A program made the position numbers and the translations under genes. Positions 36,759 through 38,293 of a DNA stretch of 38,293 nucleotides are shown one piece after another; the first letter of the stretch is position 1; the number at the start of each line of letters is the position of its first letter. Source of the DNA: Gilliamella apis (lineage in GTDB: Bacteria; Pseudomonadota; Gammaproteobacteria; Enterobacterales; Orbaceae); the NCBI RefSeq assembly GCF_002142155.1, contig NZ_NASD01000023.1:1-38293 (forward strand), in the 5' to 3' direction. A model generated the notes under the pieces. The model was not told the DNA's origin, ran no database searches, and saw only the letters and a list, made by a program, of their open reading frames with translations.

Positions 36759-38293
36759 TCATCCTTTACAAACAACATAATGTGCATTTGTATCCACTCC
36801 AACGCCGATGTCGCCAAGATATAAACCTATCCTAAAATGAGCTGAGTTGTCTCCAGAAAGAGAGCCCCAATATTCTGAAGTCCAAAACAATTGATCGACC
36901 CAATTTGATTGAGGATAAGTTTTTTTATTTAATGGACCCCATTCACCTAATATTGAACCATCAATTGCTCGAGTAAATGCATTATATTCATATAACCAAT
37001 TTTGAGGGGCTTGATTTCTAGGAGAATTGGTAAATTCTTTTCGAGTTAGTAATCGACAATAGTTAGATGCATTGGTCCAATTATATGACCAATTATAAGG
37101 TATAACCCAATTACTTCTTGGATCAAAACTATAGTCAAGTTTGATTGAAGTGTTTTTCTTATATGTTGCTCTAACCGTAACTTTTCCCAATGGTTTATCT
37201 TTTAATGTAATAAAACCCATTGCATCAATTGAAACTTTATTTCCAGGATTAGAAACTATACTATAACTATAATCACGCTGCGCTCCGCTCATAAGTAACT
37301 GAAATTTTGCACCGGGAAATCCACTAGTTGGAAATAATTTTCCAGTTAAAGTGTTAGTAACCTTATATCCATAATCAGGTACATAATCACTAGTATATCC
37401 TCCACCATTTCTTACATGAGGTTTAGAGTCTTTTTTTATATTCCACCAATTCTTATTGCTACCAAAACTAAAATCATTATCTTGGTTATTGGTTAACCAT
37501 TGCATTTCAGGTGATATAACAGTTGAGTTAGGTTTGGCATAACAAATTTGTGGTTTTGCAGCAATTTGGTACACTTTCTTTATTGTTACAAAATCACTTT
37601 CTCTTGGTATTCCATATTGTGAAATGGTTTGTGCTTGGTTACTTATCTCTAACCTTAATGGCATTGGATAACCACTTCCACAACCAATTATCTTATTTTT
37701 ATCACCATCAGGAATTTTAACTCCATTCGCATCAAACCACTGCCAATCAGTTACCGTAATCAAAAATGGTTGAATAAGATCAATACTATCTCCATCTACA
37801 TCTAGATAATTCTTTTTTTTGTCTAGTGATTGATAACTAAATAGCTTTACAACAAAATGATTAAACGTTAAATTGCCATCAAACTCTTTAATTTCGCCTT
37901 CTTTTATATTGCCTGTTGATTCACTATAAAATACACCATTTACTTTAAAACCATGTTTATCTGCAGCCATTTTAGCATTAACCAATTCGGGAGCATTTCC
38001 TCGGATAATATTAGTTGTGTATGTAGACAAGCCATATGCGGTACTGATGTTTAGTGAAATACAAAACAGAAAAGCAATAATCAATCGCCTAGCAATTTGC
38101 GACAATAAATTGAATAATTTTATAAAGCAGTAATCAATTAAATTAAGAAGAAATCGGAAAGAAATAACGCTAAATGCGTGTGTTTTTCGTACTAATCGTA
38201 CTAATATAAATGGAAAATTATGGCTGGCTGGCTGGCTGGCTGGCTGGCTGGCTGGCTGGCTGGCTGGCTGGCTGGCTGGCTGGCTGGCTGCTT
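36759..38293 (-). CDS. Lectin-like secreted protein with tetranucleotide repeat in its 5' coding region (5' partial)
   Basis: Paralogue of the protein encoded at 13358-15211. From TTG at 38105 there are 448 residues, but the frame stays open for 62 more codons to the window edge, so the real start is probably outside. The added part reads (ASQP)n from the (AGCC)n tract, then a Phe/Leu-rich hydrophobic stretch and a signal-like LIIAFLFCISLNISTAYG. The signal-cleavage-like site would lie about 86 residues in, close to the ~84 in the paralogue. Mature features: DVDGDSID, CYAKP, and a C-terminal lectin-fold-like module (YCRLLTRKEF, EWGPL, YPQSNW, LFWTSEYW, HYVVCKG). Probably a phase-variable surface or secreted adhesin; ligand unknown. 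Confidence 0.68.
   Translation of the reverse strand, partial: AASQPASQPASQPASQPASQPASHNFPFILVRLVRKTHAFSVISFRFLLNLIDYCFIKLFNLLSQIARRLIIAFLFCISLNISTAYGLSTYTTNIIRGNAPELVNAKMAADKHGFKVNGVFYSESTGNIKEGEIKEFDGNLTFNHFVVKLFSYQSLDKKKNYLDVDGDSIDLIQPFLITVTDWQWFDANGVKIPDGDKNKIIGCGSGYPMPLRLEISNQAQTISQYGIPRESDFVTIKKVYQIAAKPQICYAKPNSTVISPEMQWLTNNQDNDFSFGSNKNWWNIKKDSKPHVRNGGGYTSDYVPDYGYKVTNTLTGKLFPTSGFPGAKFQLLMSGAQRDYSYSIVSNPGNKVSIDAMGFITLKDKPLGKVTVRATYKKNTSIKLDYSFDPRSNWVIPYNWSYNWTNASNYCRLLTRKEFTNSPRNQAPQNWLYEYNAFTRAIDGSILGEWGPLNKKTYPQSNWVDQLFWTSEYWGSLSGDNSAHFRIGLYLGDIGVGVDTNAHYVVCKG
38221..38290. repeat. (TGGC)17.5 tetranucleotide tract
   Basis: Seventy bases of uninterrupted TGGC (AGCC on the coding minus strand), 17.5 units. 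Gain or loss of one unit shifts the downstream frame, and the tract has no stop codon in any frame. This is the classic structure of a contingency locus. Confidence 0.97.

Follow-up and report, generated by a model that had tools for sequence, protein, structure and literature searches.

When a contig ends inside a tetranucleotide tract at the beginning of an open reading frame, two questions arise: whether the repeat switches the gene, and where translation starts. The window analysed here is the entire contig C16 of the Gilliamella apis draft genome (G000; a 2.52-Mb assembly of 54 contigs), 38293 bases in length, which terminates within an AGCC tract (Table 1). The first-pass annotation placed this tract in the coding start of a phase-variable lectin-like adhesin gene, and the placement is confirmed: TRF reported 17.5 copies of AGCC at 38221-38290 with 100% match, and the minus-strand frame 36759-38291 runs through 510 codons without a stop, translating the tract as (ASQP)n, while the remaining two minus-strand frames stop 0 and 6 codons beyond the tract. 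The first possible TTG is located at 38105, leaving 39 non-repeat codons between it and the tract, one more than the 38 claimed earlier. A chance origin of the tract is excluded, since G000 has four AGCC tracts and the pattern read backwards occurs neither in G000 nor in any of the 35 genus genomes searched. A further argument, that the length before the signal-cleavage-like site equals that of a paralogue at 15.2 kb, has no evidence value because each tract unit alters this length; the paralogue carries no tract. A second short repeat, TCGTACTAA in 2.1 copies (38187-38205), lies directly 3' of the AGCC tract in the same frame.

Table 1. Features of the adhesin locus and of a distant paralogue in the window
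Feature	Position	Strand	Remarks
alr (alanine racemase), synteny flank	34596..35681	minus	name assigned by us, presumed
Partner gene P0002, 187 aa, MutS-domain-I-like (MSL-type), putative	35894..36457	minus	Pfam MutS_I in homologues; Foldseek
Adhesin frame 3' of the tract	36759..38219	minus	486 codons and stop; sole open frame of three
Stretch after the EWG motif	36762..36935	minus	positional counterpart of the G017 variable repeat (alignment); hypervariable among paralogues
Ig-like and C-type-lectin-like C-terminal region	36762..37355	minus	matches invasin D4-D5 (phmmer, Foldseek)
Signal-peptide-like hydrophobic segment IARRLIIAFLFCISLNISTAYG	38031..38096	minus	after a long N-terminal extension; by eye; putative cleavage site
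AGCC tetranucleotide tract	38222..38289	minus	17 full units to the contig end; codes for (Ala-Ser-Gln-Pro)n; 5' side on C19
Distant paralogue of the same adhesin family	13358..15211	minus	own ATG, no tract, 617 aa

The start codon had been expected beyond the window, and a leader ATG preceded by AAGGA was indeed found both on another contig of the same genome, C19, and in the genome G015. Three of the four AGCC tracts in G000 retain their 5' side (C1, C19 and C25) and have the common pattern ATGTTAAAATACAGTTGTTTA[AG]AGGCC(AGCC)n; on C1, with 22 units, a 524-aa protein can be read in frame from the leader ATG. On C19, the order is promoter, Shine-Dalgarno sequence, ATGTTAAAATACAGTTGTTTAGAGGCC, 26 AGCC units and ATAATTTT, the last of which also follows the tract on C16, and the first bases of C19, AAAATTATGG, are identical to the bases beside the C16 tract. 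Here the leader ATG opens a 44-aa frame with a stop directly behind the 26-unit tract, that is, an OFF allele. Contig C19 thereby carries genes that we take to be dapE and arsC, followed by the leader, the 26 units and ATAATTTT, and C16 carries ATAATTTT, the adhesin gene, its partner gene and a gene that we take to be alr. All of these elements are united in G015, whose genome is closed (contig of 2,714,786 bases), in a single 5.9-kb stretch with the order dapE-arsC-leader-3 AGCC units-ATAATTTT-adhesin-partner-alr, the distance from dapE to alr being 3.4 kb. The identity between G015 and the window is 87% at the amino acid level for the adhesin (483 codons), 88% for the partner and 94% for alr. 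From the synteny in G015 and the eight post-tract bases we take C19 and C16 to be neighbouring contigs; the figure of 17.5 units is therefore an assembly edge of C16 rather than a repeat number, which is 26 on C19. The last four bases of C16 mismatch the C19 leader, AAGC standing before the tract at the C16 tip and GGCC at this place on C19, which is perhaps an edge error. Contigs C14, C16, C19, C25, C33 and C52 of G000 all end at, or at most 30 bases from, AGCC or ATCGGGC tracts of this gene family; these genes are thus points where assemblies are interrupted, and they are concealed as a result.

The leaders of C19 and G015 have AAGGA-N8-ATG in common, with the ATG located 27 nt before the tract. 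A promoter-like site, TTGCCA-N17-TATAAT, precedes the G015 leader with 11 of 12 positions matching; such sites are common in AT-rich DNA (5 found versus 3.0 expected from shuffles), and this one is credible only because of its position and its conservation with C19. The comparison of repeat numbers between strains that the first-pass annotation had suggested gives 26 units on C19 versus 3 units in G015 at the same site, and since the leader ATG is out of frame in G015 too, both alleles seen at the site, including the assembled 26-unit state of the window gene, are OFF. Nevertheless, the adhesin frame has been kept: it has no internal stop, and dN is 0.071 and dS 0.217 between G000 and G015, a ratio of 0.33 (0.07 for alr), although both alleles are OFF at the leader ATG. 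With only 3 units, slippage should be rare in G015, and the switch may be frozen there.

This anatomy, read together with the synteny, suggests that the AGCC tract is very probably a translational phase-variation switch of the adhesin gene. The gene would be transcribed from the TTGCCA-N17-TATAAT promoter and translated from the ATG that has AAGGA 8 nt upstream, and the ribosome would pass through the short leader MLKYSCLEA before entering the AGCC tract. Each unit gained or lost in replication, presumably by slippage, would displace the frame behind the tract by one base; only at one unit count in three would the ATG be continuous with the signal peptide and the invasin-tip-like protein, and the other two would lead to termination after a short peptide. 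The product would then be exported to the cell surface and act in adhesion.

We found the same arrangement across the genus. Of the 35 genus genomes, 8 carry AGCC tracts with 7 or more units, and 7 carry a second class of tracts, (ATCGGGC)n, mostly behind the same ATGTTAAAAT leader start. The locus counts per class given below cover the fetched stretches rather than every locus, with unit numbers read from assemblies: the AGCC tracts in G011 and G015 are a lower bound, as there may be more there that do not begin BGCC, and the ATCGGGC places G016:C61, G030:C19 and G030:C27 are outside the fetched set. The fetched set includes 41 loci with both leader and tract whose downstream sequence is long enough (28 AGCC and 13 ATCGGGC), and exactly one long frame is present in 39 of them (26 AGCC and 13 ATCGGGC). 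In these 39 loci, for which 400 codons or more of open downstream frame were required, the long frame has at least 450 codons and the next-best frame at most 36; the two exceptions, L055 (180 codons) and L050:4110 (41 codons), both belong to the AGCC class. Of the 39 loci, 10 have the leader ATG in frame with the long frame and 29 have it out of frame, which is compatible with the one third expected for random frames (two-sided binomial P 0.40, which is only indicative because the loci are related). The unit number varies from 3 to 28 for AGCC and from 5.3 to 20.4 for ATCGGGC, and loci with near-identical flanks (leader and post-tract bases) have different numbers of units, namely 15, 17 and 21 (L052 and L053; the 21 cut by a contig end), 15, 19 and 26 (L054) and 12 and 20 (L047), whereas the proteins behind matched flanks may be less alike (72% between the L054 copies with 15 and 19 units). 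The ON/OFF count leaves out loci where the contig ends just after the tract (L011, L012, L076 and L077), those without a leader (L026, L027, L063, L067, L079 and the window), L053:4102 (cut at 292 codons), L055 and L050:4110 for their short longest frames, and L092 and L013, each of which is the same place as L062.

As in contingency loci, the repeat unit is not divisible by 3 and lies inside the 5' coding region, an upstream start with a ribosome-binding site is present in the sequence and the frame behind it is set by the number of units, and both ON and OFF alleles occur, with units differing between strains or copies. The proposal that slippage would switch the adhesin on and off is thus supported by the upstream ATG, the differing counts and the 10 ON and 29 OFF alleles. 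Repeat tracts in promoters are known to switch other genes, and the tract could in principle act on transcription, through promoter spacing or a regulator site, instead of changing the reading frame; however, the promoter-like site, the Shine-Dalgarno sequence and the ATG all precede it, the tract being placed 27 nt into the leader frame, and its units of 4 and 7 bases, neither a multiple of 3, are followed by exactly one long frame in 39 of the 41 leader loci, which makes this explanation extremely improbable. Almost equally improbable is that the gene is decaying and the tract within it is a neutral remnant, as might be supposed from the 29 of 39 alleles that are OFF at the leader ATG, the two loci that lack a long frame and the mere 3 units in the G015 ortholog, given that all but two of the 41 leader loci have retained a frame of 450 codons or more, that the dN/dS ratio is 0.33 with both alleles OFF and that the leader is conserved across unlinked loci and species.

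It should be noted that the OFF state of this translational switch may be leaky, because other start codons can open the long frame. In G015, a TTG located 14 nt after the ATG in a different frame opens a 492-aa frame, and in 4 of the 29 OFF loci (L053:1973, L062, L071 and L072) the long frame can be read from a second ATG close to the tract. There is some chance, perhaps one in four, that such a weaker start (the TTG at +14 or another ATG) expresses the protein at some OFF counts and that the tract sets a level of expression instead of switching it on and off, as with the Distal and Proximal starts of Neisseria modA; on the other hand, the TTG has no Shine-Dalgarno sequence of its own by eye, and in N. 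meningitidis the modA Proximal and OFF frames gave minimal expression, according to an excerpt of PMC2667262. The same excerpt states that H. influenzae differs in this respect (PMC2667262).

The translational switch resembles those of Neisseria and Haemophilus modA, hgp and lic genes in that a non-triplet repeat in the 5' coding region sets ON and OFF by unit count. Most known cases of repeat-driven phase variation come from mucosal pathogens, and the Haemophilus genes hgp and lic are switched by CCAA and CAAT repeats, respectively. Unlike in these systems, the product of the window gene is an invasin-tip-like protein with a signal peptide, encoded by an insect symbiont; the tract precedes the signal peptide, a MutS-I-like gene is adjacent, and three repeat classes occur in one gene family. 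In this bee-gut genus, repeat-driven variation concerns a family of invasin-tip-like proteins. In titles and the beginnings of abstracts from open PubMed Central text on phase variation, adhesins and diversity-generating retroelements (DGRs) of Gilliamella and Orbaceae, the system was not found. The AGCC unit itself is identical to that of modA, which AGCC tracts switch in Neisseria; 13, 26 and 37 units were seen in one gonococcal strain, as given in part of that report (PMC2667262).

The fold of the adhesin was predicted by AlphaFold with a mean pLDDT of 86.7 for the 486 residues after the tract, the N-terminal part being one low-confidence helix. The best PDB matches in Foldseek are invasin (1cwv, E 1.4e-11) and intimin chains (from 4.8e-8 for 3ncx to 4.0e-5), with a whole-chain TM-score of 0.34 for 1cwv and 0.47-0.63 by target length for the intimin fragments; such low (1cwv) to moderate (intimin) scores are expected if domain angles differ. 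A phmmer sequence match to 1cwv (E 1.2e-4) aligns the GEWG motif, and together these matches bear out the earlier description of the protein as lectin-like. The Pfam Invasin_D4 match is under the cut-off, and PDB profile searches with the adhesin and partner alignments gave nothing useful, the matches having come from single-sequence and fold searches. The protein thus shares with the tips of Yersinia invasin and E. coli intimin (1cwv, 3ncx and 1f00) an Ig-like and C-type-lectin-like C terminus with an EWG motif. Unlike invasin and intimin, the window frame consists of the tract, the signal peptide and mature domains only, with the N-terminal outer-membrane barrel not seen. Since no Pfam or NCBIfam match to an N-terminal beta-barrel translocator was found in it, the window adhesin is, by sequence and predicted fold, an invasin-tip-like protein and not an inverse autotransporter.

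G000 contains 38 frames of the adhesin family, 29 of which start with a tetra- or heptamer repeat (hand count). After the G015 ortholog, the proteins nearest to that of the window belong to the ATCGGGC class, so the repeat class does not track protein similarity, and tract starts and protein bodies seem to have been exchanged between family members. For example, L070:1728-3212 (G005, minus strand) is a mosaic whose N-terminal half belongs to the other subfamily and whose C-terminal lectin-like domain is much like that of the window. The N-terminal extensions of other members also carry repeats, such as (Tyr-Pro)n in L013:4995-6659 (N-G2 gene) and the nonamer ATTTCGACA in 5.6 copies in L028:3814-5415.

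The third repeat class comprises 46 distinct family loci, where an ATG at most 8 nt before TATAA is followed by a heptamer in 3.1-3.6 copies (3.57 in 38 rows); they correspond to 47 rows, since one place on C28 (about 14969) appears twice, once cut by the locus end. In G000 these loci were found on C23, C5, C2, C6, C8, C12, C15, C18, C19, C28, C29, C35, C36 and C54 (L028-L042, L080-L086 and L094), and further ones occur in G004, G014, G015 and G020. The heptamer unit varies between loci (CAACACA, AAACACC, CAACACG, CAACATC, CAACAGG and others) and is uniform within each, and all of them have TTG[AT]C[AT]-N17/18-TATAA[TC] across the start. Where the downstream frame has at least 300 codons, the ATG is out of frame in 41 of 42 loci and in frame in one. 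The ATG of this class can be a real start because in L029:9535-11133 (minus strand) and L096 (G032), two versions of this start that lack an intact heptamer tract, it reads in frame through 533 and 535 codons. This class bears on whether the family could be an archive of silent cassettes from which recombination supplies one or a few expressed genes, with repeats only keeping the copies off. The 46 places with a 3-unit heptamer start, 41 of the 42 testable ones being OFF, would fit such an archive, as would mosaic proteins such as L070; however, the pattern is limited to the short-heptamer class, and the AGCC and ATCGGGC loci are ON near the random-frame expectation (10 of 39), and we regard the archive as unlikely.

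Besides the repeats, a DGR is linked to the adhesin family in one genome of the genus. At a contig end of G017 (L122), a homologue of the partner gene lies beside Avd (PHROG E 2.6e-8) and a reverse transcriptase (RT; Pfam E 3.9e-21), and on a separate contig (L124) an adhesin-family gene precedes the first part of this same partner gene, after which comes a run of N. The template repeat (L122:5032-5142, minus strand), located in the ~370-nt interval between the RT and partner genes, aligns with the 3' end of the adhesin gene (L124:2512-2627, minus strand) with 25 mismatches and one 6-nt gap, scoring 104 versus at most 30 in 30 shuffles. Template A accounts for 22 of the 25 mismatches (8 to T, 8 to G and 6 to C), and by site 22 of 37 A positions differ versus 3 of 73 others. 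Because of these A-biased mismatches between template and variable repeats, we consider at least one adhesin-family member, that of G017, to be a DGR target, as judged from the sequence. The elements split over L122 and L124 are the target adhesin, MSL, template repeat, RT and Avd, and the target begins with a 3-unit heptamer, TGGCATC.

The window locus is like DGRs with an MSL accessory in combining a C-type-lectin-like target with a MutS-I-like neighbour, and its G017 relative has the RT, Avd and the A-mutagenised template and variable repeat pair. Unlike in DGRs, the window genome has no RVT_1 match (0 at E 1e-3 in the 54-contig draft, with RVT_1 present in 11 of 35 genus genomes), so that a retroelement as a present-day mechanism in G000 was rejected, and there is no clear adenine signature in its paralogues. 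The window gene is too diverged from the G017 template, 14 of 35 A sites and 33 of 68 others being different, and among 104 adhesin-like ORFs compared with this template (some places twice) a clear A bias was found only in the G017 target. Modest excesses at A sites in L075 (0.47 versus 0.35), L035:1125 (0.57 versus 0.41) and L089 (0.47 versus 0.31), with many ORFs showing the reverse, are at noise level at such divergence. Among G000 paralogues, the part behind the EWG motif is roughly threefold more variable than the rest of the gene (0.44-0.48 versus 0.14-0.17 differences per codon position in 117 pairs), with no clear adenine or third-position signature; recent retroelement mutagenesis was not seen among these paralogues, as the third position is not spared. 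The repertoire of G000 would accordingly be gated by repeats, with the adhesin and the MutS-I-like partner present and no RT found. Variety within one adhesin family thus seems to arise by two unrelated routes, repeats and a retroelement, and a single genus permits the comparison of two unrelated diversity engines on one protein fold.

The partner gene P0002 may be tied to this second engine by its predicted fold. Pfam MutS_I is the most frequent family match among its homologues (10 of 26 at E up to 10, best 0.0099); P0002 itself matches it with E 0.11, under the curated cut-off, and has no match in NCBIfam and PHROGs. In Foldseek, ranks 1-19 are all MutS/MSH proteins (E 0.019 to 0.20, probability 0.85-1.00), none reaching 0.001. 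We read P0002 as a putative stand-alone MutS-domain-I-like protein, far too short for the MutS ATPase. The positions K6 and F24 are invariant in the 26-homologue alignment, and F24 presumably stands where MutS has its mismatch-reading Phe (aligned by eye). The predicted fold, the weak family matches and a homologue ~370 nt from the G017 RT agree with an MSL accessory of DGRs. MutS_I proteins (MSL, Pfam PF01624) are described as DGR accessories in part of one report (PMC10053308), and an excerpt of another, which does not deal with MSL, gives no MutS effect in one DGR repair assay (PMC12875486).

Of 44 genomes searched in the bacterial family, 14 contain the partner family, some with fragments only, and every one of these belongs to the window's genus. 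A partner gene directly follows 26 of 44 testable AGCC or ATCGGGC adhesins versus 0 of 38 testable short-heptamer adhesins; three loci scored as having a partner without a tract were assigned to the long-tract group (a tract is present in L055 and L074; L043 by likeness to L059 of G015). The partner as a strict mark of long tracts was rejected, as two exceptions of the short-heptamer type (G004 and G017) leave a tendency only. We consider it unlikely that a retroelement target and MSL pair outlived its retroelement with a change in how it is diversified, and that the partner acts in cis on mispaired loops of the neighbouring tract or on inter-copy exchange, tuning the switching rate; if true, the partner would be a dedicated local controller of repeat slippage. 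As the MutS-I-like gene stands beside an adhesin where no RT was found, the role of MSL is directly testable here. Short partner genes of 104-108 aa, with only the N-terminal MutS-I-like part, are located at L009:5229-5543 (C1), L058:3399-3722 and L050:2224-2535.
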